From: Prevotella sp.
GTDB taxonomy: Bacteria; Bacteroidota; Bacteroidia; Bacteroidales; Bacteroidaceae
Reading direction: 5' to 3'
Length of the DNA stretch: 59,055 nt
Assembly (NCBI GenBank): GCA_017475005.1
Contig: JAFVGI010000052.1
Location: 1-59,055, forward strand
Numbering within the stretch: position 1 is the first letter of the stretch; each line of letters opens with the position of its first letter. Positions 1 through 58,152 of this stretch are shown here, one piece after another. Below the pieces are notes generated by a model. It ran no database searches. It worked only from the letters and a program-made list of their open reading frames with translations, and had not been told where the DNA came from. A program made the position numbers and the translations under genes.

Positions 1-147
1 TAGTGTAAAGTGTATGATTTAAAGTTTAATGTTTATAGTTTATAGTTTAAAGTCTGTTTTGAAGTTGAAAGTAGTAATAGTGTAAAGTGTATGATTTAAA
101 GTTTAATGTTTAGAGTTTATAGTTTAAAGTTTAGAGTTGAGAGGCAG
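1..147. repeat. Degenerate heptamer tandem array (21 units)
   Basis: The stretch divides into consecutive 7-base units such as aagttta, atgttta, tagttta and gagttta. A larger repeat of 77 bases (11 units) is superimposed: 1-35 recurs exactly at 78-112. From about 148 to 175 the pattern changes to a 9-base period (gtttaaaga-like). No gene is seen in 1-190. On the minus strand, which carries the neighbouring gene, the units contain TAA and TAG. Confidence 0.85.
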
Positions 148-181
148 TTTAAAGAGTTTAAGGAGTTTAAAGATTTTAATT

Positions 182-209
182 CTTCACTCTTCACTCTTCA
201 CTCTTCATT
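182..209. repeat. Heptamer array (cttcact x3, cttcatt) at a stop codon
   Basis: Four perfect-register 7-base units lie at the 3' end of the DUF4251-DUF3089 gene. The minus strand reads GAAGAGTGAAGAGTGAAG, so the repeat supplies the last residues and the TGA stop of that gene. Confidence 0.85.
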
Positions 210-1510
210 TTCAATCTCCGGATTCTTAGTTTGATGTTTTTTCTCAGGCATTCGCTGTATAGCCAGGGTTCACAACTGTGAATGTCTCCAACATTCAGGA
301 TGCCTAGTATGGGCTTGTATTCGGAAACGCTGTAGTTCTTGAGAACCAGGACGTTATATTCTGGTGACATCGTTACTGTTATGGTGTCCTTGATGATGGC
401 AGGAGTCGCATCTGTACGCCAGTTGACAGGATTGATGCACATAATGCCGGAACTGATGATTGGCTGAACATATTTCACATCCTTAACAGAATTATAGCAT
501 ATTGTCACACCCACATCAGCAGAGTCTTTTGCAGCAATGATATGTTTGGTGACAGTGGTGTCCTGAGCTGTTACCTTATATCCAAGGACATAGGCAGCAG
601 CAAGGTGTTTATATGTTTCGTCATTCATGTGTTTCAGCAGCTCCACAACAGCCATACCACCCTGACTGAAGCCAGCAATAACCAAGGGACGGGAGTTGTC
701 TCTGTGAGCAATGAAATAGTCGAAAGCCTTTTTGACATCACTCATAGCAAGGGTAGCACGACGATGAATGGTGTCTTCATTAAGAGTGGCCCATGTATCA
801 AGGGTGATGTGACGATAATAGGGAGCATAGAAATTATTTCCGTCAGCCATATATTCTGCTACCTTCTTCTGTTCTATAGCCATGTGGTCACGATGTTTCT
901 TATTCCACACATCAGCATAGTGGCACTTCTGACCATCAGCTGTTGTCCAGTCAAACTCCCAGGTGGAAACGACATAGAACACATCAGCACCAGTGCCATC
1001 AGTATCGTTTTGGGAAACATACCACATCGTATCATCACTGTAAACAGGAGCCTGCGGAATAACTTCCGATAGGGTAGAGGCGATATCTTCCCACTCACCG
1101 CTGTATCTGCAGTTCTGCCCATTGCTGGGCTGCATGAAGAGGTCGAATTTGGAGTCATCATATATAGTGGCAGAGAATCTGTATTCCACGATATCATGAT
1201 TAAGCTGGAACTCCATTATGGTAGCATTATTCTTCTTGTTACGCTGAGTCTTTACCTCTTTCAGGGGCACCTTGAAGCGTAATCCATCATTGCCAAATGG
1301 TACTACCTGTACCTCTCCTATATATGGCAGATAGACATCCGCAGAGTCACCCTTTACTTTAAGATAGAAATCAGATGTGACATTTCGAGAAGGATATTTC
1401 ATTGGCTGCATATAATCTATAGACGCACTGAAATCAGGATGTACTGATTGCTGGGCATCTATGCTGCAGATACCAAAGACAGAGAAAAGGATAAGGCAGA
1501 GTAATCTCAT
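191..1510 (-). CDS. Secreted DUF4251-DUF3089 fusion protein (putative alpha/beta hydrolase)
   Basis: This is a 439-residue protein with an N-terminal signal peptide (hydrophobic residues 3-16, likely cut after ADAQ-like SIDAQ near 20). Residues about 35-140 resemble DUF4251, a Bacteroidetes periplasmic domain (motif VYLPYIGE at 59-66). Residues about 155-425 resemble DUF3089, an alpha/beta-hydrolase family. The nucleophile elbow GFSQGG puts the likely catalytic Ser at 282, and His411 in the GDIHSCEPW segment is a candidate general base. The substrate is unknown. The protein is probably periplasmic. I do not know this domain pairing as a standard architecture. The last residues and the stop lie in a heptamer repeat. 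It is transcribed alone, with tRNA-Leu upstream on the same strand. Confidence 0.7.
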   Translation of the reverse strand: MRLLCLILFSVFGICSIDAQQSVHPDFSASIDYMQPMKYPSRNVTSDFYLKVKGDSADVYLPYIGEVQVVPFGNDGLRFKVPLKEVKTQRNKKNNATIMEFQLNHDIVEYRFSATIYDDSKFDLFMQPSNGQNCRYSGEWEDIASTLSEVIPQAPVYSDDTMWYVSQNDTDGTGADVFYVVSTWEFDWTTADGQKCHYADVWNKKHRDHMAIEQKKVAEYMADGNNFYAPYYRHITLDTWATLNEDTIHRRATLAMSDVKKAFDYFIAHRDNSRPLVIAGFSQGGMAVVELLKHMNDETYKHLAAAYVLGYKVTAQDTTVTKHIIAAKDSADVGVTICYNSVKDVKYVQPIISSGIMCINPVNWRTDATPAIIKDTITVTMSPEYNVLVLKNYSVSEYKPILGILNVGDIHSCEPWLYSECLRKNIKLRIRRLKMKSEE

Positions 1511-1597
1511 AGTTTACATGTTTAGGATATTATAAAAACGCACAGATGGCTAAGCCTTAATAGTAGTTAATTAAGAACTTAGCCATCTTGTTTTACG

Positions 1598-1679
1598 TGC
1601 CCAGAACGGGACTCGAACCCGTACACCGTGAAGTATTGGTGTTTGAGACCAACGCGTCTACCAATTCCGCCATCTGGGC
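1598..1679 (-). tRNA. tRNA-Leu (anticodon CAA)
   Basis: The reverse complement starts GCCCAGATGG and ends TCTGGGC plus discriminator A, giving a perfect 7-bp acceptor stem. The anticodon stem TTGGT/ACCAA encloses loop CTCAAAC, so the anticodon is CAA. A variable arm of class II type is present, and the T-loop is GGTTCGAGTCC. CCA is not encoded. Confidence 0.95.
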
Positions 1680-1690
1680 GATAACGGCTG

Positions 1691-1698
1691 CAAAGATA
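1691..1698 (-). promoter_or_regulatory. Promoter -7 element (TATCTTTG) for tRNA-Leu
   Basis: The minus strand reads TATCTTTGC 12 bases upstream of the tRNA 5' end and matches the Bacteroidetes TAnnTTTG consensus. Confidence 0.7.
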
Positions 1699-1737
1699 CA
1701 AAAAATATTATTCACCACCAAATTTTCTCGTGATTTT

Positions 1738-3063: not shown

Positions 3064-3126
3064 TAATGGTTATTGGTTAATGGTTATTGGTTATTGACTT
3101 GAAACCTGAATCTTGAAACCTGAAAC
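3064..3126. repeat. Heptamer array filling the trxB-GH105 spacer
   Basis: Nine consecutive 7-base units (taatggt, tattggt, taatggt, tattggt, tattgac, ttgaaac, ctgaatc, ttgaaac, ctgaaac) run exactly from the base after the GH105 start codon to the trxB stop codon. Nothing else is present in the spacer. Confidence 0.85.
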
Positions 3127-4073: not shown

Positions 4074-4108
4074 AGATATTGTTTGTTGTTATGTTTGATT
4101 AATTGTTT

Positions 4109-4474
4109 TTATTGATTTGTCTGAGTTTCCGTATTGTTATTGTTATTGTTACTGCTTCTGTCATTCCTTGTAGAATTTTCTCTTTTTTTTGGAGAATTCC
4201 TGTTTCCGGAAAAACTGCTAGTGAAACCACTTCGCATACCACCTGTAATACCAGATCTGTACATATTACCAACAGAAGAACGTGTCGGATCATTGCTTCT
4301 GGCGTTGTTATTGTTGCGTGAATTATTGGTGTTATTCACTGTAGAGCGAGTGCTGCTTGAACGCATATTAGAGGTTCTGTCATTATACTGGCAATCATTA
4401 TCAGTTATGTCATGACAATATCCCCCTGTCAGCATGCAGAGAATCATTATTGTTGTGGTGATAATCTTTTTCAT
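4109..4474 (-). CDS. Small secreted Asn/Ser/Arg-rich protein of unknown function
   Basis: I set the start at ATG 4474 rather than 39 bases earlier. MKKIITTTIMILCMLTGG is a signal peptide, and AAGGAAG, one of the few clear Shine-Dalgarno-like sites here, lies just upstream. The resulting 121-residue protein is low complexity: runs of Asn, Ser and Arg, and motifs MRSSST and GGMRSGF. The GGMRS motif recurs in the larger secreted protein at 11168-12118. A promoter-like TATTTTTG (4501-4508) precedes it. No known domain was recognised; a surface or periplasmic disordered protein is the best guess. Confidence 0.6.
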   Translation of the reverse strand: MKKIITTTIMILCMLTGGYCHDITDNDCQYNDRTSNMRSSSTRSTVNNTNNSRNNNNARSNDPTRSSVGNMYRSGITGGMRSGFTSSFSGNRNSPKKRENSTRNDRSSNNNNNNTETQTNQ

Positions 4475-4500
4475 AATTTCTTCCTTAATATTATTTTTTG

Positions 4501-4566: not shown

Positions 4567-6591
4567 TCATGCTTTTAAGCTGCCTCCGATTTTCTTTGCT
4601 ATTGCTGTCAGAATCTTTTCTGTCTCTTGCAGTTCGACAATGAGTTCCATTTGTCTTTCGGGGTCAGTGGTAGTCTTTATTTCGTTACGTATCTGGGTTA
4701 GTTTGTCTGTTATGTATTCACGTCGGAATTCGTAGAGCAGATGTTCTATCTTATCGCGAAGCTGTTCTATGGACAGTTTTACTTCCAAGCTCTTTGACAG
4801 TGTCAGAGCATCAGATGTCAGTTTTATTGCAAGACTTGAAATCTCGTAGTCATGGTGGCTGGTGAAGTAGTGTTCGCATGAGAAATTCTCTTCTCCAGTA
4901 TGTTCAACAGCTTCCTGCAGGATATCGTTATACATAGGATTAGCGAACCTCAGATTGTCACCTTCGAGGTTATAATGTATAAACTGTGCTACTGTCAGGG
5001 AGAAAATGTTTCCGTCATCATCTGTGATGTTTTCATACAATATCTCATCTCCATGCTGTATAATCATCTTCATCAGCAGGTCAGCAGATGTTTCCCTCTT
5101 CCTTATGTATTGCTGTGGAGCAGGAATTGTCTGCGTTGTAGTCGAAGCAGGAGTAGAAGTTGAAGTTGATGGAGTAGGATTCTTAGCATTATCCAGCAAC
5201 CCATGTTTTGGATACTCCTGGTATTCCTTGGCACGTTGCAGTTCACGCAATTCATTCTTTCGTTCCTCTTCTCTGTAGGCACGAATCTCCTCATTCATCT
5301 TGGCAGTAAGAGTCTGCTCGCTGAATCCTAAGCGTGCTGAGCAATCCTGTATGTATGCATCCCTGACAATAGGGTCACCAATCACACTGACACTCTTTAT
5401 GATGCTGCTGATAGCTTCAGAACGTTCATGAGGATCTGTGACGCCATCAAGCAACACCTTTGTCTTGAATGCTATAAAGTCCATCTGGTGGTCCTTGATG
5501 TATGCCCTGAATTCCTCTGCTGTATTCTTCTTTGCAAATTCGTCAGGGTCCTGTCCGTCAGGCAGTAGCATCACCTTTACATTCATACCCTCTTTCAGCA
5601 ACATATCAGTACCTCGCAATGCAGCCTTAATGCCTGCAGCATCACCATCATAGAGAAGTACAATGTTAGAGGTGAAACGATGAAGTATATGTATCTGGTG
5701 TTCAGAGAGTGCTGTTCCGCTATTGGCCACGACATTCTCTATGCCACATTGGTGCATAGAGATAACATCAGTATATCCCTCCACCATATAGACGAGGTTC
5801 TCCTTGGCGATAGCTTTCTTTGCCTGGAAAATGCCATATAGTTCATGGTCCTTATGGAATATCTCGGAATCAGGGGAGTTGACATATTTCTGGTTTATGC
5901 CCTTTGTGCGTGAGTCGAGCACTCGTCCTCCAAAAGCCACCACTTTTCCTGATATTCCTATCCAAGGGAATATAGCGCGTCCTGAGAAACGATCGAAGGG
6001 GATTTTGGAATTGGAATTCTCGATGTTATAGCACAATCCCACTTTTACCAGGTACTCCTCCTTGTATCCCTGCTTTAAGGCTGTCTCAGCCATTGCATGT
6101 CTGTCGTTCAGACAGAAACCCAGTCGGAATTTCTCTATGATATCATCCCTTATTCCCCTTGAACGGAAATACTGCAATCCTATAGCTCTGCCATCGATAT
6201 TGTTTTGCAGAATATCCTTGAAATAGTTTGCTGCCCATTCATTCACGATAAACATCGCTTCGCGTTCTGACTGTTCCTTCTTCTGTTCGTCAGTAAGCTC
6301 TGTTTCCCGAATCTCTATATGGTATTTGTTTGCCAGCCAACGCAGAGCCTCCGGATATGTCAGCTGCTCATGCTTCATGATAAAGCTTACGCTGTCGCCA
6401 CCTTCTCCACAGACGAAGCAATGGCAGGAGCGTCGGGTGGGAGAGACATAGAAAGAAGGGGTGTGGTCATTGTGGAAAGGACATAAGCCACGATAGTTTA
6501 TTCCCACTTTCTTCAGGGATACGAAATCGGATACTACATCAACAATGTCTGCAGTATCTTTTATGCGTTCTATGGTGGCTCGGTCAATCAA
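4567..6591 (-). CDS. dnaG: DNA primase, TTG start
   Basis: A 674-residue primase that makes RNA primers for replication. The N-terminal CHC2 zinc finger uses Cys37, His40, Cys58 and Cys61. The TOPRIM core follows (MVEGYTDVISMHQ near residue 270, then LYDGDAAG with the acidic metal ligands). The C-terminal DnaB-interacting part is preceded by a Thr/Pro-rich linker with repeated STSTP-type residues. The family N-terminus MIDRATIERI begins at codon TTG (6591-6589); no in-frame ATG lies upstream before a stop and none is near downstream. The spacer to rsmD is four heptamer units. Confidence 0.95.
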   Translation of the reverse strand: MIDRATIERIKDTADIVDVVSDFVSLKKVGINYRGLCPFHNDHTPSFYVSPTRRSCHCFVCGEGGDSVSFIMKHEQLTYPEALRWLANKYHIEIRETELTDEQKKEQSEREAMFIVNEWAANYFKDILQNNIDGRAIGLQYFRSRGIRDDIIEKFRLGFCLNDRHAMAETALKQGYKEEYLVKVGLCYNIENSNSKIPFDRFSGRAIFPWIGISGKVVAFGGRVLDSRTKGINQKYVNSPDSEIFHKDHELYGIFQAKKAIAKENLVYMVEGYTDVISMHQCGIENVVANSGTALSEHQIHILHRFTSNIVLLYDGDAAGIKAALRGTDMLLKEGMNVKVMLLPDGQDPDEFAKKNTAEEFRAYIKDHQMDFIAFKTKVLLDGVTDPHERSEAISSIIKSVSVIGDPIVRDAYIQDCSARLGFSEQTLTAKMNEEIRAYREEERKNELRELQRAKEYQEYPKHGLLDNAKNPTPSTSTSTPASTTTQTIPAPQQYIRKRETSADLLMKMIIQHGDEILYENITDDDGNIFSLTVAQFIHYNLEGDNLRFANPMYNDILQEAVEHTGEENFSCEHYFTSHHDYEISSLAIKLTSDALTLSKSLEVKLSIEQLRDKIEHLLYEFRREYITDKLTQIRNEIKTTTDPERQMELIVELQETEKILTAIAKKIGGSLKA

Positions 6592-6619
6592 GTTAAGAGT
6601 TAAGAATTAAGAGTTAAGA
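6592..6619. repeat. Heptamer array in the rsmD-dnaG spacer
   Basis: Four units (gttaaga, gttaaga, attaaga, gttaaga) occupy the whole spacer between the dnaG TTG start and the rsmD TAA stop. The pattern continues into the stop codon. Confidence 0.85.
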
Positions 6620-6620
6620 G

Positions 6621-7169
6621 TTACCTTTTAAATATGCTAAAGTTCACGCTTCCATATGAGCGGTGTTCAACAAATCGTGGATGAGATGAGAAATCATTCT
6701 GCTTTCCATGTTCGAAGACAAAGACGCCACCTTCTTTCAACAGAGGCAATGCCTTGTCCGGTATCTGTGCAAGAGTGGGGAGAGCATATGGCGGGTCAGC
6801 AAAGATGAAGTCAAACTGCTTCTTGCATGTCTTCAGGAACTTAAACACATCGCCCCTGATGAGGGTATGGTTCAGGAGAGCATCAGAATTAGAGTTTGTT
6901 GACAGTTTGTCAATACACTGTTGTATAAACCTTGCGTGGTCACGATCCAGTTCTACACTGACGACGCTGCTACATCCACGGGACAACAGTTCCAGGGAAA
7001 TGCTTCCTGTGCCAGCAAAGAGGTCGAGGGCAGAGGTGTCTTCAAAGTCAATATAACCCTGAAGGACATTAAAGATGTTCTCCTTGGCAAAGTCTGTCGT
7101 GGGACGAGCCTTGAAGCTTCGAGGAATGTCAAAATGACGCCCTTTGTATGTGCCTGTTACAATACGCAC
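6621..7169 (-). CDS. rsmD: 16S rRNA (guanine966-N2)-methyltransferase, GTG start
   Basis: A 182-residue SAM-dependent methyltransferase. The SAM-binding loop is LDLFAGTGS (49-56) and the catalytic N6/N2-MTase motif is ADPPY (124-128). The family N-terminus MRIVTGTYKG begins at GTG 7169-7167, which overlaps the end of the DUF3822 gene by 13 bases. This suggests translational coupling. The pair DUF3822-rsmD is a recurrent Bacteroidetes arrangement as I recall it, and dnaG is the third gene of this probable operon. Confidence 0.9.
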   Translation of the reverse strand: MRIVTGTYKGRHFDIPRSFKARPTTDFAKENIFNVLQGYIDFEDTSALDLFAGTGSISLELLSRGCSSVVSVELDRDHARFIQQCIDKLSTNSNSDALLNHTLIRGDVFKFLKTCKKQFDFIFADPPYALPTLAQIPDKALPLLKEGGVFVFEHGKQNDFSSHPRFVEHRSYGSVNFSIFKR

Positions 7170-9411: not shown

Positions 9412-9433
9412 AGCAAGTTGCCTCAATCTTCTT
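9401..9433. terminator. Perfect 11-bp stem at the helicase stop codon
   Basis: The last codons of the helicase form AAGAAGATTGA, which pairs with TCAATCTTCTT across an 11-base loop. The stem spans the stop codon, and a second small stem (AGTCC/GGACT) follows near 9450-9463. It lies between two convergent genes and is probably a shared terminator. Confidence 0.7.
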
Positions 9434-9473
9434 GTTTCCTATAGGTCCTATTAGTCCTATTGGACTTATAAGA

Positions 9474-11122: not shown

Positions 11123-11171
11123 ACTTTAAACTCTAAACTATAAACTCTACACTCTGAACTTCACACTTTAC
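11123..11171. repeat. Heptamer array before the FadL-like gene
   Basis: Seven units in register (actttaa, actctaa, actataa, actctac, actctga, acttcac, actttac) run into the stop codon of the gene at 11168-12118. Each unit read on the minus strand begins with TAA, TAG, TGA or a near match. Confidence 0.85.
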
Positions 11172-15395: not shown

Positions 15396-16224
15396 TCGCT
15401 GGTTGTTTCTGATTCTCGTCGAAAATTATTTCGCCTACCTTTCCCTCTACTATTATCTCTCCTGATGTCGGGTTCTTGATGCTGTGAACATCGCCTTTGA
15501 TGTTTCCATTTACTGTGGAGTATTCAAACAACAGATTGGCATCATTTCCAAAGGTGCAGTCTTCCATTGTCAAACCATCCACATAGCACAACAACTGTTC
15601 GCCTGTCATGTGACATCTTACGAGTTTTATGTTCTTTGCATACCAGGCAAAGTATTCTCCATTTATCTCGCTGTCATAGATGGTAACATTCTCTGCCTCC
15701 CAGAAGGCATCTTTTGAATTGAGTATGGCATTGTGTATCTCTACATTCTTGGCATACTGGAAGCTGTAGTTTCCGTCTTGGTGATAGTTTTCTATCTTGA
15801 CGTTCTCACAGTGCATTCCCAGATAGTCGCATTCCTTTATCGTGGTATCTTTGATAGTGATGTCCTTGCAGTCCCACAGAGTCTCCAGCCCATGATTAAA
15901 GGTGCAGTGGTCTATCTCTATTCCCTCCATTCGTCGGAACATCTTTGGAGCATCCACGATGCAGTTCTTTATGGTGCAGTCCTTGGAATACCACAGTGAA
16001 GAGCGGGCACTTTCATTGAAGTAGCAGTCATTAATGCGGAAGCCATTATTCTCCCAGAAAACATACTTTCCTTCAAAAGTACATTTCTCGGCTTCGATGT
16101 TGCTGCTCTCCTTGATGCTAGATTCTCCGACGTGGATTGTTACATTCTCCAGTCGCAGATTATGTGAAGCATAGAGCGGCCTTTCACCTCCGTATTCCTT
16201 ATCTTTTATTAATTCATAATGCAT
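15373..16224 (-). CDS. DUF3737 family protein (parallel beta-helix)
   Basis: A 283-residue protein matching DUF3737: YGGERPLYASHNLRLENVTI near the start, then about nine rungs of the kind 'xxIxNCxxD..', each with regularly spaced Ile/Val/Cys, as in a right-handed parallel beta-helix. It has no signal peptide. The function is unknown. The first codons (MHYELIK) and the ATG itself lie within a heptamer array, so the start may have been created or moved by the repeat. It is co-oriented between the MATE transporter and the PatB-type lyase. Confidence 0.8.
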   Translation of the reverse strand: MHYELIKDKEYGGERPLYASHNLRLENVTIHVGESSIKESSNIEAEKCTFEGKYVFWENNGFRINDCYFNESARSSLWYSKDCTIKNCIVDAPKMFRRMEGIEIDHCTFNHGLETLWDCKDITIKDTTIKECDYLGMHCENVKIENYHQDGNYSFQYAKNVEIHNAILNSKDAFWEAENVTIYDSEINGEYFAWYAKNIKLVRCHMTGEQLLCYVDGLTMEDCTFGNDANLLFEYSTVNGNIKGDVHSIKNPTSGEIIVEGKVGEIIFDENQKQPANAKIQLR

Positions 16225-16281
16225 AATGCATAATTCATAATTTCTTAATTCTTAACTCTTAACTCTTAACTCTTAACTCCT
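16212..16281. repeat. Heptamer array spanning the DUF3737 start and the MATE stop
   Basis: Ten consecutive units (attcata, atgcata x2, attcata, atttctt, aattctt, aactctt x3, aactcct) stay in one register. They cover the DUF3737 ATG (16224-16222) and the last codons of the MATE gene (LGVKS and stop). Confidence 0.9.
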
Positions 16282-17666
16282 AATTCCCTTTCGTTTCTGT
16301 CATTTATGTATGACCATCCTCTGGTGCTTAGTCTCAATGTCATTATTAGTCCTCTGAAGCACAGCTCTATTGCCATAGCCAACCAAACGCCTTTCAGGCC
16401 ATATTGTGGCGCCAGAGCCATTGCCAATGAAACGCGTACAATCCAGATGCTGCCAAAGTTCATTATGCTTGGTATGAGAGTCTTTCCTGCTCCTACGAAT
16501 ACTGATGTTGCTATTATTGCAGCAGCGAAGCCCGGTTCAGCCCATGCCTCTATGCGAAGCACATCTGTTCCTAAGGCTATTACCTCTTCGTCAGGAGTTA
16601 TGACACTCATCATCTCTGGAGCGAAAATCCACATCAGCAGTCCCATAAAACCCATTATGCTGACTCCCAGTACCATCGAAATCCAGGCGAAGGAATGCAT
16701 AAAGTCCCTGCGTTCTGCTCCCTTGCTTTGTCCTACGAGGGTGGTGGCAGCTTCTGCAATACCATGACCAGGCATATAGCATAACGACTCTACGTTTATT
16801 CCAAAGGTGTTTGCTGCTATTGCAACTGTTCCGAGAGGGGCTATGATAGAACTTATCATCACCTGTGCCGAACACATCATGCCACGCTCCAGTCCTATTG
16901 GTGCTCCTATTCTGCCAGCTTTCTTCAGTATCTTTATTGTTGGGCGATAAGACGAAGTGGCATCTTGCGTAAAACGCAGATTCTTGTCTATCATCGTCAT
17001 GTTGTATGTCATGCATGTCATAGTGACGAGGTAAGCCATCATCGTTCCGAAGGCAGCTCCTGATATACCCATTCCGCAAGTGAAGATAAAGAGGTAGTTG
17101 AATACCACATCGAGGAAGCACATCTGCACCATCAGCATGCTTGGTGTCTTGACGTTCCCGGAACAGCGCAGGCTTCCCGCTGCGAGGCTGTTGAGCACTA
17201 TCAGCGGCATGCCACAACAGAAGATTGAGAAGTAACGCGTTGACATCTCACATATTCTCTCTGTTGCTCCCAGCCAGTGGGGTAGGAAGGGTGCGATGCT
17301 CAGTCCTATTGCCATCAGCATCATCGAGAAGAGCAGTCCTGATGTCAGTCCTTGTCTTATCACACCTCTGGCGCCTACCACATCGCCTGCTCCTATTCTG
17401 TGGGCCACCTGTACAGAGAATCCTGCAGCAAAGGCAGAGTTAAGACCTCCGAAGAGCCATATTGTTGTTGAAACAAGACCTACTGCTGCTGCTTCGTCTG
17501 TGCTCAGATGTCCCAGCATGGCAGCATCAATAATCTGCATTGCTATGAAAGAGAACTGTGCTATGATAGAAGGAATAGCCAAAAGAACAGTGAGATGTAC
17601 TTTCTGATATAAAGTCATCTCACGTTGCTTATCCCTAACCAGAGCTAACAGTTCGTCCTTCGTCAT
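16266..17666 (-). CDS. MATE family efflux transporter
   Basis: A 466-residue inner membrane protein with about twelve hydrophobic segments in two bundles, typical of MATE/NorM exporters that use H+ or Na+ gradients to expel drugs or cations. Supporting motifs are GLVSTTIWLFGGLNSAF in TM2 and the matching second-half segment with EAATTLVGQSKGAERRD. The substrate cannot be read from the sequence. It is inserted in the his cluster between hisD and hisC with very short spacers, so it is probably co-transcribed. Confidence 0.9.
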   Translation of the reverse strand: MTKDELLALVRDKQREMTLYQKVHLTVLLAIPSIIAQFSFIAMQIIDAAMLGHLSTDEAAAVGLVSTTIWLFGGLNSAFAAGFSVQVAHRIGAGDVVGARGVIRQGLTSGLLFSMMLMAIGLSIAPFLPHWLGATERICEMSTRYFSIFCCGMPLIVLNSLAAGSLRCSGNVKTPSMLMVQMCFLDVVFNYLFIFTCGMGISGAAFGTMMAYLVTMTCMTYNMTMIDKNLRFTQDATSSYRPTIKILKKAGRIGAPIGLERGMMCSAQVMISSIIAPLGTVAIAANTFGINVESLCYMPGHGIAEAATTLVGQSKGAERRDFMHSFAWISMVLGVSIMGFMGLLMWIFAPEMMSVITPDEEVIALGTDVLRIEAWAEPGFAAAIIATSVFVGAGKTLIPSIMNFGSIWIVRVSLAMALAPQYGLKGVWLAMAIELCFRGLIMTLRLSTRGWSYINDRNERELGVKS

Positions 17667-17701
17667 TCAATTATCAATTGTCAATTATCAATTGTCAATT
17701 A
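17667..17701. repeat. Heptamer array filling the hisD-MATE spacer
   Basis: Five units alternate tcaatta and tcaattg, from the base after the MATE ATG to beyond the hisD stop. The final Asn and TGA of hisD are part of the repeat. Confidence 0.9.
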
Positions 17702-18987
17702 TCCACTTCCTCCACTCTCAGCCTCATCGCGTTGGCGTGGGCTTCAAGCTGTTCATTCTCTGCCATGCAGACAACAGCATTACCGATGCTCTTTATGCCT
17801 TCTTTTGTGAGGTGTTGGTAGGTTACCTTCCTGTTATAAGAGTCGAGGTTTACACCATTATATGCCACAGCATATCCGTGTGTTGGCAATGTATGGTTGG
17901 TGCCAGAAGCATAGTCGCCAGCACTCTCGCAAGCATAGGTTCCGAGGAATACCGAACCGGCATTTATCACCTTCTCTGCCAGTTCCTCATAGTCACTGGT
18001 AGCAATGATGAGGTGCTCTGGTGCATAGGCATTGCTGAGTGCCATAGCCTCTTCCTTGTCCTTCACCAGGACATATTGCGAATTGTTCAGCGATTTCTCA
18101 GCCATCTCTGAGCGTGGGAGCAGAGCGAGTTGTCTTTCTACCTCCTTGCTCACTTTTTCTATCATCTCTTCTGATGTAGAAATCAGTATCACCTGTGAGT
18201 CTGCTCCATGTTCTGCCTGTGACAGCAGGTCAGCAGCCACGAAGGCAGCATTGCTTGTCTCGTCGGCTATAACACATACCTCTGATGGTCCTGCAGGCAT
18301 ATCGATAGCTACATCATGCAGAGACACCTGTTGCTTGGCAGCCATAACGAACTGGTTTCCTGGGCCAAAAATCTTATACACCTTTGGTACAGATTCTGTT
18401 CCATAAGCCATTGCTCCAATGGCCTGTACTCCACCAGCCTTGAATATCTTGCTTACTCCAGCCACCTTTGCAGCCATCAGTATGGCAGGATTCACCTTGC
18501 CGTCTTTTCCTGGAGGGGTGCAGAGTACTATCTCCCTGCATCCTGCTATCTTGGCAGGAGTGGCGAGCATCAGTACTGTAGAAAAGAGTGGGGCAGTGCC
18601 GCCAGGGATGTATAGTCCTACCTTCTCTATGGCTACACTCTTCTGCCAGCATACCACACCAGGTGCTGTCTCTACCTTTGTGCCAGCAAACTGCTGTGCC
18701 TCGTGAAAGGCTGCTATGTTCTTGTGGGCCAGTATGAGGGCATCCTTCAGTTCTGATGATATTAACTTTTCTGCTTCTGCTATCTCTGCTTCTGTAACAG
18801 CAAGTGACTCCAGCTGCACCTTGTCAAACTTCTCCTCATAGGCCTTCACAGCCTTGTCGCCATTCGCCTTGATGTCTGCCAGCACACCAGCCACAATGCT
18901 GTTGAGCTGTGACACATCCATCTGCGGACGCTCACATATCTTGGCATACTCAGCCTCCGACGGATATTTTATATAGTTAATCTTCAC
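17695..18987 (-). CDS. hisD: Histidinol dehydrogenase, GTG start
   Basis: A 430-residue zinc enzyme for the last two oxidations of histidine synthesis. Motifs are FGPGNQFVMAAKQQ, DMPAGPSEVCVIAD, QAEHGADSQ (zinc ligand region) and GTNHTLPTHGYA (catalytic His). The conserved N-terminus (KINYIKYPS) starts with GTG at 18987; no in-frame ATG precedes it. Repeat element A (18998-19145) lies between it and hisG, and one promoter upstream of hisG probably serves both. Confidence 0.95.
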   Translation of the reverse strand: MKINYIKYPSEAEYAKICERPQMDVSQLNSIVAGVLADIKANGDKAVKAYEEKFDKVQLESLAVTEAEIAEAEKLISSELKDALILAHKNIAAFHEAQQFAGTKVETAPGVVCWQKSVAIEKVGLYIPGGTAPLFSTVLMLATPAKIAGCREIVLCTPPGKDGKVNPAILMAAKVAGVSKIFKAGGVQAIGAMAYGTESVPKVYKIFGPGNQFVMAAKQQVSLHDVAIDMPAGPSEVCVIADETSNAAFVAADLLSQAEHGADSQVILISTSEEMIEKVSKEVERQLALLPRSEMAEKSLNNSQYVLVKDKEEAMALSNAYAPEHLIIATSDYEELAEKVINAGSVFLGTYACESAGDYASGTNHTLPTHGYAVAYNGVNLDSYNRKVTYQHLTKEGIKSIGNAVVCMAENEQLEAHANAMRLRVEEVDN

Positions 18988-18997
18988 TCTTTTAATT

Positions 18998-19145
18998 ATG
19001 AATTTTGAATTACGAATTACGATGTTTTCTCGCTTTGCTGCGAGTTAGAGGTTTGAGGTTGAACGTTTAATATAACTTAGTACTTTATCCTTCGTACTCG
19101 CGTCAGCGACACATCGTACTTCTTACCTCTTACTTCTTACTTCTT
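18998..19145. repeat. Repeat element A: hairpin core flanked by heptamer arrays (hisG-hisD spacer)
   Basis: Four heptamers (atgaatt, ttgaatt, acgaatt, acgatgt) lie at one end and five (acatcgt, acttctt, acctctt, acttctt x2) at the other. The core carries CTCGC/GCGAG and CGCGTCAGCG stems. acgatgt at one end can pair with acatcgt at the other. Blocks such as GTGTCGCT, ACGCGAGTA, TCAACCTC and GCAAAGC are shared in the same order and orientation with element B at 27533-27672. Confidence 0.7.
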
Positions 19146-19995
19146 ACAGTATCATCTTCTCAATTGGCAGCACGAGGATTCCTTCAGCACCTTTTTCCTT
19201 CAGCTGTCCTACAATCTCCCAGAAATGCTTCTGGTCGATTACTGCATGAACACTGGTCCATCCCTCAGTAGCCAAAGGCAATACCGTAGGCGACTTGATG
19301 CCTGGCAGTATGCTGCATATCTCCTTTACCTTGTCTGTAGGAGCATTCATCAGCACATACTTCTTGTCGTCAGCCACAAGGACACTCTGTATGCGGAATA
19401 GGAATTCATCGAGGGTAGCCTGCTTCTCAGGTGTCAGCTCTTTATTGCCAATGAGCAGTGCCTCACTCTTCATTACTGTCTCTACCTCACGCAGCTTGTT
19501 GCTTACCAATGTAGAACCGGATGATACGATGTCGAATATACCGTCAGAGAGTCCTATGCCAGGAGCTATCTCTACACTTCCCTGTATCACATGCACCTCG
19601 ATGTTGATGCCCTGTTCCTGTGCAAATTTCTTCAGGATGTTAGGGTAGGAGGTAGCAATCTTCTTGCCATCAAACCATTTCACCCCATTATACTCCTCTG
19701 CCTCAGGAATGGCGAGCGACAGGCGACACTTTGAGAATCCCAAGCGCTTTACGACGTTAGCGTCCTTACCACGCTCTACGAACTCGTTCTCGCCTACAAT
19801 TCCGATGTCGGCAATGCCGCTGGCTACACACTCAGGAATATCATCATCCCTCATGTAAAGCACCTCGATAGGGAAGTTACTTGACTGTACCAACAGAGTT
19901 CTTCTGGCACTGTTGATTTTTATGCCTGTCTCTTTCAGAAGATCCATTGTGTCTTCATACAGGCGACCCTTTGATTGTACTGCAATTCTAAGCAT
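19144..19995 (-). CDS. hisG: ATP phosphoribosyltransferase, long form
   Basis: A 283-residue enzyme for the first committed step of histidine synthesis (ATP plus PRPP). Motifs: MLRIAVQSKGRL start, IADIGIVGENE, and the PRPP-binding DIVSSGSTL. The length and the extra C-terminal domain (about residues 210-283) mark the long HisG form, which is feedback-inhibited by histidine and does not need HisZ. Promoter TACCTTTG at 20035-20042 gives a leader of about 33 bases. No attenuator leader peptide was seen. Confidence 0.95.
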   Translation of the reverse strand: MLRIAVQSKGRLYEDTMDLLKETGIKINSARRTLLVQSSNFPIEVLYMRDDDIPECVASGIADIGIVGENEFVERGKDANVVKRLGFSKCRLSLAIPEAEEYNGVKWFDGKKIATSYPNILKKFAQEQGINIEVHVIQGSVEIAPGIGLSDGIFDIVSSGSTLVSNKLREVETVMKSEALLIGNKELTPEKQATLDEFLFRIQSVLVADDKKYVLMNAPTDKVKEICSILPGIKSPTVLPLATEGWTSVHAVIDQKHFWEIVGQLKEKGAEGILVLPIEKMIL

Positions 19996-20609: not shown

Positions 20610-20652
20610 CAAAACAAATTACCCCATTGTCATCATTGTCAGCTGTCAGCGG
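20610..20652 (+). repeat. Repeat copy A of a 43-bp family (left border of the deiminase pair)
   Basis: This 43-base block recurs exactly at 23022-23064. It begins caaaacaaattacccc and ends gctgtcagcgg, with TGTCA repeated at 9- and 7-base spacing. Similarity ends at both edges. Diverged copies lie at 23688-23734 and, inverted, at 23880-23914. Confidence 0.9.
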
Positions 20653-23021: not shown

Positions 23022-23064
23022 CAAAACAAATTACCCCATTGTCATCATTGTCAGCTGTCAGCGG
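23022..23064 (+). repeat. Repeat copy B of the 43-bp family (right border of the deiminase pair)
   Basis: Exact 43-base match to 20610-20652 in the same orientation, 2,412 bases away. The stop codon and the last few codons of the minus-strand gene at 23051-23311 fall within it. Confidence 0.9.
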
Positions 23065-23687: not shown

Positions 23688-23734
23688 ACAAAACAAATTG
23701 GGTGGCTGTCATCGTTGTCAGCTGTCAGCGGGGG
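23688..23734 (+). repeat. Repeat copy C (diverged)
   Basis: Related to copies A and B: same start caaaacaaatt and same end gttgtcagctgtcagcgg, with a changed middle. It faces the inverted copy D at 23880-23914. Confidence 0.75.
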
Positions 23735-27523: not shown

Positions 27524-27532
27524 GTAAATTAC

Positions 27533-27672
27533 AATTAGGAATTAGGAATTACGATGTATCGGCTTTGCCGAGGTTGATGTTTGAAGGTAGAAGTTACTTC
27601 CTGCATTGTACTTCCTACTCGCGTAGCGACACATCGTACATCGTACATCGTACTTCTTACTTCGTAATTGCA
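27533..27672. repeat. Repeat element B: hairpin core flanked by heptamers, coding for the PBP4 tail
   Basis: Heptamers aattagg x2 and aattacg at one end; acatcgt x3, acttctt, acttcgt and aattgca at the other. The core has a CGGC/GCCG stem, and acgatgt/acatcgt and gaattacga/tcgtaatt can pair across the element. The order of shared blocks matches element A (18998-19145). The dacB reading frame runs through it. Confidence 0.75.
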
Positions 27673-28854
27673 TAGGATATTGCAGATTTTGTCTTGTAGG
27701 TTGCGTGTTTTGTCTGCATTAAGACAACCATTGACAATGATAGAGAAGGCAAGGTTGTGACCTTCTTTTGTAGTACAATATCCTGCAAGACTTATGACTC
27801 CTGTCAGTGTGCCTGTTTTTGCTCGCACATTATTCTGTGCCTCAGTATCCTTCATGCGCTTTTCGAGAGTACCATCAACGCCTGCTATTGGCAAAGCCTC
27901 GCGCAGATGACGATAGATATTCTCATGGGTAAAGGCATAACGCAAGAAAGCCACCTCTATCTCTGGGGAGAGATAGTTATATAGTGAGAGTCCTGAACCA
28001 TCAGCAAAACGATGGGAGGGAGCAGAGGTCCTGTCATGTGTGAGCTGTGAGGGAGATTCAGCATAAATTTTCTTCAGCAATGCTTCTTCTAAAGCAATAC
28101 CTTTCTTGGCAGTAGAAGGTTTGCCTTGGGTAGCACCAAGATGATAGAGTAGGGTTTCGGCATAGGTGTTGTTGCTGTTCTTCATCACCTTCTCAAGAAT
28201 TTCAGAAATTGAATGGTTGCAAGATGTGAGCCACTGGGCAGACGAAGGACATGCCCACTCAAAGACATTTCCGAGAATCACTATGCCGGCTTTTTGAAGC
28301 GCCTTTGCAAAATTCTGTAGCAGTCCCTCCTTGCGTCCAAAGAGCAGAGAGCAGAGTTCTGGGTTATCATCATCCCAACACCAACCCTGACCATACTTGT
28401 TATCGTTCATAAAGGTGGCATCACCACAGAGGCTGCCAGTGATAGTATCAATACCCATTTTGTATATCTCATCAGCAAGGATGTCAAGGTCACCAGCATT
28501 GAGCTTTGGATCCATTACACCAGTGATGTAGAGATTGCCCTGCAGGCTGCCACGACGTAGCTTATAGACGGAGTCTTCGAGACAGAAGACATAAGAGGTA
28601 TCAATGCGTCCTGTATAGCTGACAGAAGTGGTATAATGATAACAGTCACCAAGTTCGTTGAGTGCAGTAATGCCTGTTATCAGCTTCTGTGTGGAAGCAG
28701 GTCGCATCGTTTGACGGGCATTCCTCTCATAAAGACAGGAGTCGATATCGAGGTCATAAACCATAATGCCGACACTGGAGGTGTTAGCGACTGAAGATGC
28801 TGCCAACAGAGAGTCGAGAGCAAGGGCAAGGCTTACTAAGAGATTACTTATCAT
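27535..28854 (-). CDS. dacB: D-alanyl-D-alanine carboxypeptidase/endopeptidase (PBP4, S13 family)
   Basis: A 439-residue periplasmic enzyme that trims or cleaves peptidoglycan cross-links. N-terminal signal segment (residues 1-22). Active-site motifs are all present: STQK (Ser54, Lys57), SNN (Ser227, Asn229) and KTG (346-348). The enzyme domain ends near residue 394. Residues 395-439 (CNYEVRSTMYDVRC and on) are encoded by repeat element B and have no place in the family, so they look like a tail gained when the repeat took over the old stop codon. The start overlaps nadB by 11 bases. Confidence 0.9.
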   Translation of the reverse strand: MISNLLVSLALALDSLLAASSVANTSSVGIMVYDLDIDSCLYERNARQTMRPASTQKLITGITALNELGDCYHYTTSVSYTGRIDTSYVFCLEDSVYKLRRGSLQGNLYITGVMDPKLNAGDLDILADEIYKMGIDTITGSLCGDATFMNDNKYGQGWCWDDDNPELCSLLFGRKEGLLQNFAKALQKAGIVILGNVFEWACPSSAQWLTSCNHSISEILEKVMKNSNNTYAETLLYHLGATQGKPSTAKKGIALEEALLKKIYAESPSQLTHDRTSAPSHRFADGSGLSLYNYLSPEIEVAFLRYAFTHENIYRHLREALPIAGVDGTLEKRMKDTEAQNNVRAKTGTLTGVISLAGYCTTKEGHNLAFSIIVNGCLNADKTRNLQDKICNILCNYEVRSTMYDVRCVATRVGSTMQEVTSTFKHQPRQSRYIVIPNS

Positions 28855-41529: not shown

Positions 41530-41988
41530 ATGAACATAGGAGACAGAGCACCCGAGATTTTGGGTGTGGATGAGCAGGGACGGGAGATTCGTCTGAGTGA
41601 CTATAAGGGCAGGAAACTGGTGTTGTACTTCTATCCGAAGGATAACACCAGTGGCTGCACCGCTGAAGCTTGTAGCCTTCGTGACCATTACGGAGAACTG
41701 CAGGGCAGGGGGTATGAGGTAGTTGGTGTGAGCAAGGATTCTGCTGCATCGCATGTGAAATTCAAGGAGAAATACAACTTGCCTTTCCCATTGATTGCAG
41801 ATATCAATCACGAACTCTTAGAGGCTATGGGCGCTTGGGGTGAAAAGAATATGTATGGCAAGAAGACTATGGGCACTATACGCACCACCTTTATCATTAA
41901 CGAAGAAGGCATCATTGAACAGATATTTGCTGGCAAACAGGTAAAGACAAAAGAGCATGCGGAGCAGATTCTGACAATTGACAATTGA
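41530..41988 (+). CDS. bcp: Thioredoxin-dependent thiol peroxidase (Bcp-type peroxiredoxin)
   Basis: A 152-residue peroxiredoxin. Peroxidatic Cys43 lies in DNTSGCTAEACSLRD, and resolving Cys48 is five residues on, as in the Bcp type with both Cys in one helix. It starts with ATG 41530, 16 bases after rubrerythrin, and is probably co-transcribed. It reduces hydrogen peroxide and organic peroxides with thioredoxin, which ties to trxB at 3126-4073. The final Asp-Asn and stop lie in a short heptamer run. Confidence 0.9.
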   Translation: MNIGDRAPEILGVDEQGREIRLSDYKGRKLVLYFYPKDNTSGCTAEACSLRDHYGELQGRGYEVVGVSKDSAASHVKFKEKYNLPFPLIADINHELLEAMGAWGEKNMYGKKTMGTIRTTFIINEEGIIEQIFAGKQVKTKEHAEQILTIDN

Positions 41989-41993
41989 TAAAT
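41973..41993. repeat. Short heptamer run at the bcp stop
   Basis: gacaatt, gacaatt, gataaat in register. The bcp TGA is inside the second unit. This is the one clear case at the end of a plus-strand gene. Confidence 0.6.
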
Positions 41994-42101: not shown

Positions 42102-42174
42102 CGCGGAGTGGAGCAGTTGGTAGCTCGCCAGGCTCATAACCTGGAGGTCGCATGTTCGAGTCCTGCCTCCGCAA
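42102..42174 (+). tRNA. Initiator tRNA-fMet (anticodon CAT)
   Basis: The anticodon loop is CTCATAA. Initiator marks are the unpaired C1 x A72 end and the A11-U24 pair. Acceptor pairs 2-71 to 7-66 are perfect and the discriminator is A; CCA is not encoded. Oddities: the anticodon stem is CCAGG/CCTGG, so A29-U41 replaces one of the usual three G-C pairs, and the T-stem has a U52 x C62 mismatch. Confidence 0.9.
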
Positions 42175-42185
42175 CTAAAATAAAA

Positions 42186-49984: not shown

Positions 49985-50012
49985 TATGTTTACCGTTTAC
50001 GGTTTACTATTT
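49985..50012. repeat. Degenerate heptamer array before rho
   Basis: Units tatgttt, accgttt, acggttt and actattt. On the minus strand each carries TAA or TAG. The array ends in the stop codon of the DUF4296 gene. Confidence 0.7.
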
Positions 50013-50889
50013 ATGGTTGAGGGCTAGGTTTATTGTCCTGCTGTGGTGGTGGAACGGAGTCAGTCTTTGCACTGTCTGTTGGTTCTGGAGCAGGTGGCGG
50101 TGGCGGAGTAGTATGCAGGTGCAGCAGTTTTATGTTCCTAATGGAAACGAGCCTCAATGTTGTTGATGTTGGCTTTGTTGTTACTGCATCAAGGTTTCTG
50201 CCCAGCATAAAGAAGCCCTTTATATTCTTTATGTGCAACCTATCCTTCTCATTATTGAGTGTTACTATTCCATGTCCGTCATGATTTATATTTGTCATCA
50301 TTGTGGAAATGCTATCATTACTGAATGTAACCACCATTATGATTGACAATGTTTTGTATCCATCCTGGAAGATGAATTTTGTATCGCATTGCAGTGAAAT
50401 ATTATCACCATCCTGGAATGTGGAGTCAGGAGTTATGTCATACGACCATACATTATATGGTGGCTGTTGCATTAGCAAGATGTCAGGACTACTCTTCCAA
50501 ACATTTGCTGTATCAGCCTCTTCTCCCTGCATTCCTTCTGACTTGCCACCCAAAGCTATGACGTTTCTCTCTACCCTATCAACAAGGTTTAAGTATATCT
50601 TATGCAGATCATCAGCATGCTGACAATAGTATGACATTGAATTGTCCCATTCCTGTTGTGTCAGTCCGTGTTTCTTAAGGACATTAGCGCGCAAGGCTAC
50701 GATGTCAGACTCTGAAGAATGAAACTCTCGTGTTTCATATAATGCCTGTGCTATATGAAGGTCGAAGAGAACATCTTCCATCTCTTTACTCGACAACACA
50801 CCAGCAGGTAGCGATGGAGCACATGATGTCATCACGGACAACAATGCTGTCAGCATGCAAAGAGTTAGAGTATGAAATAGTCTCTTCAT
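50011..50889 (-). CDS. DUF4296 lipoprotein
   Basis: A 292-residue predicted lipoprotein: the signal peptide ends in VMTSC, with lipidated Cys23. Residues about 35-115 carry the DUF4296 pattern (MEDVLFDLHIAQALYE; LKKHGLTQQEWDNSMSYY), a Bacteroidetes domain of unknown role. The C-terminus is Pro-rich (TTPPPPPAPEPTD). It directly follows lspA, the peptidase that would process it, with a 13-base gap; that order is recurrent in Bacteroidales. Confidence 0.8.
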   Translation of the reverse strand: MKRLFHTLTLCMLTALLSVMTSCAPSLPAGVLSSKEMEDVLFDLHIAQALYETREFHSSESDIVALRANVLKKHGLTQQEWDNSMSYYCQHADDLHKIYLNLVDRVERNVIALGGKSEGMQGEEADTANVWKSSPDILLMQQPPYNVWSYDITPDSTFQDGDNISLQCDTKFIFQDGYKTLSIIMVVTFSNDSISTMMTNINHDGHGIVTLNNEKDRLHIKNIKGFFMLGRNLDAVTTKPTSTTLRLVSIRNIKLLHLHTTPPPPPAPEPTDSAKTDSVPPPQQDNKPSPQP

Positions 50890-55344: not shown

Positions 55345-55362
55345 TTATATTAATTTTATTTA

Positions 55363-55397
55363 TCAACTTTCATCTTTAAACTTTCAACTCTAAGCCA
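55363..55397. repeat. Degenerate heptamer array before ileS
   Basis: Units tcaactt, tcatctt, taaactt, tcaactc and taagcca. The coding strand shows TAG, TGA and TAA in successive units. Confidence 0.65.
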
Positions 55398-55402
55398 TCC
55401 CC

Positions 55403-56632: not shown

Positions 56633-57828
56633 TCTGTTCGTCCCGGATATGCTTCCAGCGCTTTACGCAATACTATCAAAGCTCTTTCCAAGTCTTCTTT
56701 CTTCAGGACGTATGCTATACGCACCTGATTTGTTCCTGCTCCTGGTGTGGTATAGAATCCTGCTCCTGGAGCCATCATTACTGTCTCGCCTTCGTATTCG
56801 AATTCCTCAAGACACCATCTGCAGAACTTCTCAGCATCATCTACCGGCAACTGTGCCATAGTGTAGAATGCACCCATTGGAATTGGAGAATATACTCCAG
56901 GAATACGGTTGAGGCCATCGATAAGTACCTTACGACGTTCTACGTATTCATCATACACATCGCGATAGTATTCCTCTGGTGCATCGAGAGATGCCTCTGC
57001 TACTATCTGTCCTATCAGTGGAGGACTCAGACGAGCCTGACAGAATTTCATCACAGCCTTGCGTATCTCGTCATTCTTTGTTATCAAGCAACCGATACGT
57101 ATTCCGCACTCACTGTAACGCTTTGATACAGAATCGATGAGAACAGTATTACGCTCTATGCCATCAAGATGGAAGACAGAGATATAAGGACTGCCAGTAT
57201 AGATATATTCACGATACACCTCGTCAGAGAAGAGATACAGGTCGTATTTTTTTACGAGGTCACGTATCTGGTTCATCTCTCTGCGGGTATAGAGATATCC
57301 TGTTGGGTTGTTAGGGTTACAAATCATTATAGCCCTTGTGCGGGAATTGATAAGTTCCTCAAACTGCTCTACCTTTGGCAGCGAGAAGCCTTCATCAATA
57401 GTTGTTGCTATAGTACGTATCTTGGCACCGGCGCTGATAGCAAATGCTATGTAGTTAGCATAAGCTGGTTCTGGTACAATGATTTCGTCACCTGGATTCA
57501 GACATGCCATGAAGGCGAACAAGATAGCCTCTGAGCCACCACTAGTGATAATGATATCGTCAGGTGTTACCTTGATGTTATACTTGTCATAATATCCAAC
57601 CAGCTTTTCTCTCAACGACTGATAACCCTGTGATGGGCTGTACTCCAGAATATTCCTGTCAACATTCTTCAATGCGTCAAGTCCCACTTGAGGTGTTGGT
57701 AAGTCTGGCTGTCCTATATTTAGATGATACACCTTTGTGCCACGTTTCTTTGCAGCTGCAGCAAAGGGTACGAGTTTACGTATCGGTGACTCTGGCATTT
57801 CAACGCCACGTTTTGAAATAATAGGCAT
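56629..57828 (-). CDS. Class I/II PLP-dependent aminotransferase
   Basis: A 399-residue fold-type I aminotransferase of the aspartate aminotransferase-like group. Evidence: LNIGQPDLPTPQ (36-47), CNPNNPTGYLYTRREM, LFSDEVYREY and SVSKRYSECGIRIG with the PLP Lys. Amino-acid specificity is not clear. The gene is preceded by a promoter and a long, highly folded leader (57852-58047), which suggests post-transcriptional control or a separate small RNA. It is coupled to the LolC/E-like gene. Confidence 0.85.
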   Translation of the reverse strand: MPIISKRGVEMPESPIRKLVPFAAAAKKRGTKVYHLNIGQPDLPTPQVGLDALKNVDRNILEYSPSQGYQSLREKLVGYYDKYNIKVTPDDIIITSGGSEAILFAFMACLNPGDEIIVPEPAYANYIAFAISAGAKIRTIATTIDEGFSLPKVEQFEELINSRTRAIMICNPNNPTGYLYTRREMNQIRDLVKKYDLYLFSDEVYREYIYTGSPYISVFHLDGIERNTVLIDSVSKRYSECGIRIGCLITKNDEIRKAVMKFCQARLSPPLIGQIVAEASLDAPEEYYRDVYDEYVERRKVLIDGLNRIPGVYSPIPMGAFYTMAQLPVDDAEKFCRWCLEEFEYEGETVMMAPGAGFYTTPGAGTNQVRIAYVLKKEDLERALIVLRKALEAYPGRTE

Positions 57829-57851
57829 GTAATGTGATTTTTATTTTTGAG

Positions 57852-58047
57852 AAAAAAGGGGCGCACCAGTGATGTGATGAAAACTCCGAGTTTTGTGTTT
57901 AGAGTGCTCTCCGCTTTTGTAATCCACCGGCCCTTCGGCTAAGACTTTCGTCTATGTGGCCCGCCATAGGCAAGAGAAACGGTCTCTGAGTTTCGATTAT
58001 TTGATGAGTATCCCTATCGAACCGATACGACCCCTATATATAAATTT
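57852..58047 (-). ncRNA. Candidate structured leader or small RNA upstream of the aminotransferase
   Basis: About 195 bases of unusually GC-rich, folded sequence. The minus strand shows an AGAGA/TCTCT hairpin, AGAC-GAAA-GTCT, AGCC-GAAG-GGC(C) inside a CCAC/GTGG stem, and AAAACT/AGTTTT. AGGGG near the 5' end can pair with CCCCT just before a run of six T (57857-57852). That layout suits a terminated small RNA or attenuated leader. It matches none of the riboswitch or housekeeping RNA consensus sequences I can recall. Confidence 0.5.
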
Positions 58048-58053
58048 TGTGCG

Positions 58054-58061
58054 CAAAGGTA
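58054..58061 (-). promoter_or_regulatory. Promoter -7 element of the structured leader
   Basis: TACCTTTG on the minus strand, about 225 bases before the aminotransferase ATG and just before the folded region. Confidence 0.7.
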
Positions 58062-58124
58062 CAAAAAAGTTATGTATTATGCAAGAAAATCCAAATAATT
58101 TAACTTTTTTGCATTAAAATCGCT

Positions 58125-58152
58125 AATTGCTAACCATTAACTGCTAACCTTT
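58125..58152. repeat. Heptamer array at the metallopeptidase stop
   Basis: Units aattgct, aaccatt, aactgct and aaccttt. They include the last codons and the TAA stop of the gene at 58137-58691. Confidence 0.75.

Follow-up and report, generated by a model that had tools for sequence, protein, structure and literature searches.

Heptamer arrays along the Prevotella window

The stretch of DNA analysed here, called the window throughout, is a contig of 59,055 nucleotides from a Prevotella sp. (JAFVGI010000052.1, our C43) and belongs to a 2.36-Mb assembly of 72 contigs that is about 81% complete. Many of its gene junctions are occupied by tandem units of seven bases, termed heptamer arrays in the following. 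Fifteen ranges had been named as such arrays in a sequence-only reading of the window, and the lag-7 identity of each range singly was compared, at its best-scoring position, with 500 dinucleotide shuffles. Fourteen of them hold, with identities of 0.64-0.95 and at most 3 of 500 shuffles reaching the best value, and the fifteenth, at 58125-58152, lies within chance (identity 0.52; 17 of 500 shuffles).

The contig starts with degenerate TTTAAAG/TTTAGAG heptamers (1-145), followed at 181-209 by a TCTTCAC array, which extends into the 3' end of the open reading frame (ORF) 191-1510 on the minus strand and contains its stop. The spacer at 3064-3126 is filled by TTATTGG and then TTGAAACC heptamers, and the related genome G122 has a shorter version composed of the same families. 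A GTTAAGA array fills the spacer at 6591-6623; it is missing from G122 and from a second relative, G217, where the two genes overlap, making the own genome 36 bp longer at this site (6592). The AAACTCT-type array at 11123-11160 belongs to the same family in G122, and mixed families are found there in G217 and in a third relative, G133. At 16209-16286, AATGCAT/AATTCAT units are followed by TTAATTC and TTAACTC units that overlap both gene ends, and G217 and G133 carry other units at this junction. Further downstream, a TCAATTA/TCAATTG array fills the spacer at 17667-17703, one of its units being the stop of ORF 17695-18987 (minus strand), and the next junction holds an AATTATG/AATTACG array (18994-19022) and a TACTTCT array (19111-19147; TAAGAAG in the sense direction) at the stop of ORF 19144-19995 (minus strand). 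Between converging ORFs lies an AATTAGG array (27531-27553), and an ACATCGT array (27631-27672) is placed within ORF 27535-28854 (minus strand), close to its 3' end. TGACAAT units (41972-41993) form the end of ORF 41530-41988 on the plus strand, including its stop, and GTTTACC/GTTTACG units fill the spacer at 49985-50018. The AACTTTA-type array at 55363-55397 is the weakest of the fourteen (identity 0.68; 2 of 500 shuffles).

Besides the arrays, the window encodes a tRNA-Leu (caa) and a tRNA-Met at 1597-1679 and 42102-42175; the junction of the tRNA-Leu, which is well conserved in G122, is free of arrays. Of 312 proteins encoded by the window and the other stretches of the genome, 26 have matches of at least 150 aa in 80 named loci, and the best of these belong to an uncultured Prevotellaceae (L199; 83-99% identity in three proteins), in agreement with the sequence-only reading. 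The sequence GTCATCRTTGTCAGCTGTCAGCGG occurs three times in long spacers (20629-20652, 23041-23064 and 23708-23731), where shuffles expect 0 copies.

The seven-base period and its distribution

The period is directly observed well beyond the named ranges. Across the whole window, 16 clusters with at least 12 of 14 identities were counted at lag 7 and a further 14 at lag 14, compared to 0, 5, 0 and 6 at lags 5, 6, 8 and 9; the maximum in 20 shuffles was 2. The autocorrelation was extended to 20 other 20-kb stretches of the same genome (400 kb, with 191 spacers amounting to 32 kb), counting runs of at least 8 unbroken identities at a given lag in spacers between called ORFs. Lag 7 gave 48 runs against a shuffle mean of 1.6, accompanied by 33 at lag 14, 20 at lag 21 and 15 at lag 11, and the control lags 5, 6, 8 and 9 gave 1, 11, 9 and 11. 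Hence, the view that the period is the property common to these arrays is borne out by the lag-7 peak. Coding sequence shows 5.1 lag-7 runs per 100 kb, a density below that of lags 6 and 9 (8.1 and 6.5) and above that of lags 5 and 8 (0.8 and 1.1). The arrays are concentrated in spacers rather than restricted to them, as they extend into gene ends and six lie deep within long ORFs of the own sample. Furthermore, the claim of a strict periodicity goes too far, because adjacent units mismatch at 11-30% of positions, depending on the phase. The picture is also less clean in the window alone, where the spacers between called ORFs contain 6 unbroken runs at lag 7 and 7 at lag 14, but also 6 at lag 9, so that a nine-base component exists too. 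Arrays account for 0.66% of the sequence sampled from the own genome and for 1.21% of the G122 contig.

Perfect arrays, defined by at least 10 identities at lag 7, were collected from the close clade, which yielded 238 arrays with 83 distinct units. The statement that units differ between loci is partly wrong, as the units are not private to a locus: AAACTTT accounts for 17 arrays, AAACTCT and AAGAGCT for 13 each, AACCGTT for 11 and AACTCTT for 10, most of the AAGAGCT arrays coming from one 20-kb stretch. It might be supposed that such units are driven by hairpins, in which a palindrome with a 3-nt loop generates periods of 7, 9 and 11. Some units contain TTAA or AATT and arrays with lags 9 and 11 exist, but palindromes (0.36 vs 0.38) and stem lengths (2.64 vs 2.81) are at or below the values of letter-permuted units, which refutes the hairpin model as a general rule and leaves it next to no probability.

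The load of arrays is patchy, being strong in close relatives and zero in some samples of the same genus. Perfect arrays per 100 kb amount to 11.5 in the own genome, 12.1 in G122, 17 in G022, 44 in G217 and 28 in G133 (the G217 and G133 samples comprise only 18 and 21 kb), followed by 10 in G158, 5 in G205, 4.0 in G032, 3.1 in G003, 2.9 in G034 and 2.1 in G001; samples of the same-genus genomes G016, G024 and G026 and of G042 from another family contained none. The exact 14-mer CTTCACTCTTCACT has 60 copies in the own genome compared to 0 for its reversed control. It was found in 17 of 59 relatives, all 17 among the 35 of the same genus, but the reversed control has a similar or higher frequency in G007, G013, G018 and G031. 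No match to TTTAAAGTTTAAAGTTTA was found in five genomes. The pattern TAANNNTTAANNNTTAA plus its reversed form proved a noisy proxy of load, G026 having 96 reversed-form matches and 0 perfect arrays in its 100-kb sample. On a wider scale, three tandem copies of GTTAAGA are present in at least 115 stretches of the named-genome collection from many phyla, where about 0.1 would be expected by chance (an estimate assuming equal base frequencies). Among the 80 titles listed are Bacteroidales, Cyanobacteria, Acidobacteriota, Nitrospinota, Clostridiales, Gammaproteobacteria and others, and when the seed is masked, each of four taxon groups among these loci still has lag 7 as its leading period.

Heptameric short tandemly repeated repetitive (STRR) sequences are known from cyanobacteria. 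Lag 7 also leads outside the seed in the cyanobacterial loci fetched here (27.6 per 100 kb), and their units are shared with the clade at chance level (2 vs 3.0 expected). The assumption that heptamers had not been described for Bacteroidales has to be dropped, because PMC4679880 reports heptamer direct repeats in five Bacteroidetes including Paludibacter propionicigenes, a member of the Bacteroidales with two sets of them. According to the same source, heptanucleotides are the most abundant category of long repeats in most genomes (Mrazek 2007). As these long simple sequence repeats (SSRs; units of 5-11 nt) are described in PMC4679880 and PMC4692102, they resemble the present arrays in being perfect or nearly perfect tandem heptanucleotides beyond chance expectation, mostly intergenic and phylogenetically scattered. 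They differ in that here many degenerate families are mixed within a spacer and, in the rich genomes, every third or fourth gene junction carries an array. The TAACTGA repeats of Beggiatoaceae, some Cyanobacteria and the five Bacteroidetes (MacGregor 2015, PMC4679880) are likewise spacer heptamers, sometimes mixed and strain-specific; in contrast to their description there, our arrays occur in both orientations and with many units, and TAACTGA itself is not the unit of any of the 238 clade arrays; of 337 fetched loci, 2 contain it, both of which came from the scan of named genomes. The G-quadruplex heptamers GGGNATC/GGGGAYT of Xanthomonas and Nostoc (Rehm 2015, PMC4692102) share the unit length and the scarcity between divergent ORFs, but the arrays here do not form a single unit family, and GGG or CCC occurs in only 3 of 238 clade arrays. 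With regard to position, the nearest parallel in the published accounts covered is provided by the Xanthomonas heptamers, which are about 90% intergenic, lie on average 28 nt from the nearest upstream-side ORF and vary extensively in length and sequence at conserved junctions (PMC4692102). Open-licence literature, searched at the level of titles and abstracts, contained no description of such arrays in Prevotella. Collectively, the arrays are heptanucleotide SSRs, a type of repeat already known, in an extreme, degenerate and junction-filling form; heptamer repeats are known in other bacteria, and it is their extent and anatomy here that look unusual.

Gene junctions, stop codons and turnover between species

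The placement of the arrays at gene ends is equally a matter of observation. Among 733 gene stops in stretches of the own genome, G122, G217 and G133, 140 have a lag-7 array starting between -21 and +50 nt of the stop, while lags 5, 6, 8 and 9 gave 2, 8, 5 and 7 arrays. Arrays were found at 28 of 67 junctions between convergent genes, at 129 of 544 between codirectional and at 12 of 64 between divergent genes, corresponding to 2.52, 2.00 and 0.63 arrays per kb of spacer. In the own genome and G122 taken together, 123 of 410 junctions of 10-400 bp carry an array, and at 55 of these 123 at least 80% of the spacer is covered, in agreement with the early impression that several arrays occupy complete spacers. 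Arrays beginning exactly at the stop appeared compelling in lists read by hand; an unbiased edge test gave 19 of 87 vs 12.4 expected, and no such rule is claimed.

The arrays often supply the stop codon of the gene. When the unit is extrapolated from the sequence downstream of the stop, the gene stop coincides with a stop of the array in 43 of the 97 cases in which an array starts directly behind a stop (770 stops examined), compared to 11 by chance. This coincidence is partly definitional, since an ORF ends at its first in-frame stop. It might be possible that the arrays were selected as a translation backstop, in which a stop-bearing 7-nt unit places stops in all three frames within 21 nt and thereby catches read-through or shifted ribosomes. 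Apart from the stop register, this idea is consistent with the finding that 66 of 68 distinct intergenic clade units contain a stop in one or both strands (0.97 vs 0.81 in permuted units), and that downstream stop triplets change less than the other phases (137 changes vs 231 expected), with 17 of 48 single changes keeping a stop (11.3 expected). However, the remaining 31 of 48 destroy it, phase 4 outside the stop triplet is equally conserved, heptamers of other taxa show no stop excess (0.75 vs 0.72), and codirectional arrays have no strand preference, with sense (0.80) and antisense stops (0.73) both above permuted values. We read these patterns as weak evidence for selection at best and consider the backstop unlikely.

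The expectation that copy number and units change between related species was confirmed at orthologous spacers of G122, G217 and G133, with one genome representing each species, so that the turnover refers to species rather than to strains within a species. In the pairwise comparison with G122, a partner was available for 46 of 289 junctions. Among these, lag-7 arrays are present at 8 junctions in the own genome, at 9 in G122 and at 5 in both; selected junctions were also followed across several species. At junction 18988-19143, the units at one gene end are TAAGAAG in the own genome, TAACGGT/TAAAGGT in G217, TAGGAAT/TAAGAAT in G122 and TGATGGT/TAACGGT in G133; in G395 a GC-rich insert is followed by an AATTAAC-type array, and G158 carries nine-base CTATAG units. 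At junction 17667-17694, three families are found in G217; one of them is retained in the own genome, and mainly a different one in G122. Turnover also reaches into protein: in the GH127 gene L017:9972-12029 (minus strand), a CTTCACT array replaces a loop in frame, giving NG-QDSSLFTLHSSLKDGYA instead of NGTQLTGEGMKLLNLDNGYA as in G122 and G280.

Such exchange bears on the proposal that the arrays are binding sites of a nucleic-acid-binding regulator acting on leaders, as put forward for the Beggiatoaceae TAACTGA repeats in PMC4679880. Arrays often stand directly before start codons and units recur between loci, as this proposal would predict. But there are dozens of unit families in both orientations, units and stops occurring on both strands and also in convergent spacers instead of mostly forward and directly before a start codon; units are swapped between species whose genes are about 90% identical; and the published unit is absent from the clade arrays. 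Hence, regulator sites appear very unlikely.

Some evidence points to copying between loci. In the own genome, the recurrence of aperiodic 18-mers at other loci concerns 5.0% of positions within array zones compared to 1.7% in other spacers, and in G122 6.8% vs 3.6% (overlapping positions counted). In addition, one composite block of 45 bp is identical at two G122 loci.

Other elements share these junctions. GC-rich palindromic inserts of the CCCCTCCC...GGGGAG type are found at the same gene ends as arrays (junctions 11108 and 18987 in G217, G395 and G158), and an element of about 45 bp (CGCTCGGCCCAA...AAAGCGAAGCGACT) is embedded between heptamers at different loci, L019:7942 in G217 and L015:16468 in G122. 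The near-palindromic stretch L019:13640-13810 has many both-strand matches in relatives (71-83% identity), and no second copy was found in the own and G122 samples.

Origin of the arrays and a candidate load factor

We lean, with little more than even confidence, towards the reading that the arrays are lineage-specific, nearly neutral and fast-evolving heptanucleotide SSRs that arise by slippage plus occasional copying between loci; slippage, copying and the lack of function are what we infer from the patterns described. Tandem duplication would occur when a polymerase or a repair reaction slips with a strong step of 7 nt, an idea published for heptamers by Mrazek in 2007 and described in PMC4679880 and PMC4692102; the polymerase footprint is quoted from 2007 as the reason for seven bases, and the passages covered contain no test of it. 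Loops of 7 nt would largely escape mismatch repair, as the efficiency of methyl-directed repair is high with loops of 1-3 bp and falls with larger ones (PMC4060949). Blocks of arrays would occasionally be copied between loci by template switching or gene conversion. The arrays would sit at gene junctions because coding sequence limits where they survive, hence their start near stops and their filling of short spacers, and the same constraint would make them scarcer per kb in the promoter-bearing divergent spacers. An array crossing a gene end would supply a new stop. Bacteroidota are not known to need a Shine-Dalgarno sequence, and their leaders would accordingly be tolerant. The sharp lag-7 peak in spacers with its harmonics at 14 and 21 supports this reading, as do the exchange of units at one junction between related species, the densities in the three types of spacer and the arrays beside gene stops. 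Further support comes from arrays gained at overlapping or almost abutting genes and in the GH127 loop, from the recurring 18-mers and the identical 45-bp block, and from the left end shared by many CTTCACT arrays.

Several observations weigh against it. The reduced change of stop triplets has been mentioned above. At site 6592 and at L016:8228 the empty sites lack the heptamer, and full arrays stand where relatives show no visible precursor; at the latter locus an AAACTTT/AAACTCT array is present in G122 and G217, whereas the genes overlap in the own genome and are separated by three bases in G395 and G133. A plausible short precursor is seen in G122 at L030:4480, unlike at these sites. Copying received no support from the general unit-order test, in which 3 arrays were above and 5 below expectation in one set and 9 above and 8 below in the other. 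Units are also shared between taxa above the letter-permuted expectation, 14 with other Bacteroidales loci (4.9 expected; 0 of 500 permutations) and 8 with other phyla (3.8 expected; 8 of 500), with little excess for other genomes of the genus (7 vs 4.0; 41 of 500); this sharing is only suggestive, because the named loci were picked by a heptamer seed and may include close relatives. Finally, CTTCACT arrays tend to share their left end, which is ATT in 26 of 39 arrays and, within the own genome, in 12 of 18, against a background of 3%. Slippage alone explains neither the preference for 7 over 8, nor arrays without precursor, nor this common end.

Nine-base arrays of the GTCCTATTA and CTATAGTAC types were seen at the same kind of junctions as the heptamers, in the window at 9412-9473 and at L084/L085 of G158.

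The common left end and the arrays without precursor would be accounted for if a dedicated enzyme actively inserted array blocks with a fixed end. However, ATT is one transition away from the ACT of the CTTCACT unit and may represent a variant unit, and the arrays have no inverted ends. As specific versions, a reverse transcriptase was rejected since RVT_1 genes show no association, being present in one of six rich genomes and in three of six poor ones, and a composite element resembling a miniature inverted-repeat transposable element with arrays as inverted ends was rejected since only 4 of 99 neighbouring array pairs are inverted. Active insertion is thus quite unlikely.

Regarding differences in load between lineages, a search for MutS domain V showed that each of six heptamer-poor genomes has, in addition to two genes of 844-910 aa, a third of 604-637 aa that was found in none of six rich genomes; five of the rich genomes are only 72-81% complete and one is 99% complete, and no MutS_V gene turned up in G022. 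The third protein scores far below the curated MutS1/MutS2 models. It has about 600 aa with the MutS domain V at its C-terminus (L324:4942-6744 in G024; also L325, L326 and L327), and judging from hydrophobic N-terminal stretches it looks membrane-anchored. In a survey of 120 genomes of the genus (min_completeness 95 set, own genome included), the gene is present in 62 and absent from 55, three fragment cases being dropped. The median load, measured by the noisy TAANNNTTAANNNTTAA pattern proxy, is 24 with and 93 without the gene (Mann-Whitney p 5e-5, uncorrected for phylogeny). Counterexamples exist in both directions, with G255, G151, G102 and G367 combining the gene with a high load and G084, G149, G168 and G171 its absence with a low load. 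The inverse link is suggestive and serves as a lead only, since shared ancestry could produce it.

A bolder and rather unlikely possibility is that the arrays represent self-dispersing DNA. A polymerase or repair reaction that has a 7-nt step would write blocks with a fixed end into junctions and now and then into genes, and these blocks would then become stops and leaders of the host. Their load would be set by a factor varying between lineages, possibly the MutS-like paralogue, which many poor relatives retain and the rich clade lacks, and the same process acting in many phyla would explain recurring units such as GTTAAGA.

The arrays show how repeat DNA supplies stop codons, leaders and, in one case, a loop of a protein. 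The question why seven-base units are so common among the long repeats of bacteria becomes testable in this genus, because its related species range from a high through a low to no load, orthologous junctions can be compared with and without an array, and there is a candidate repair gene.

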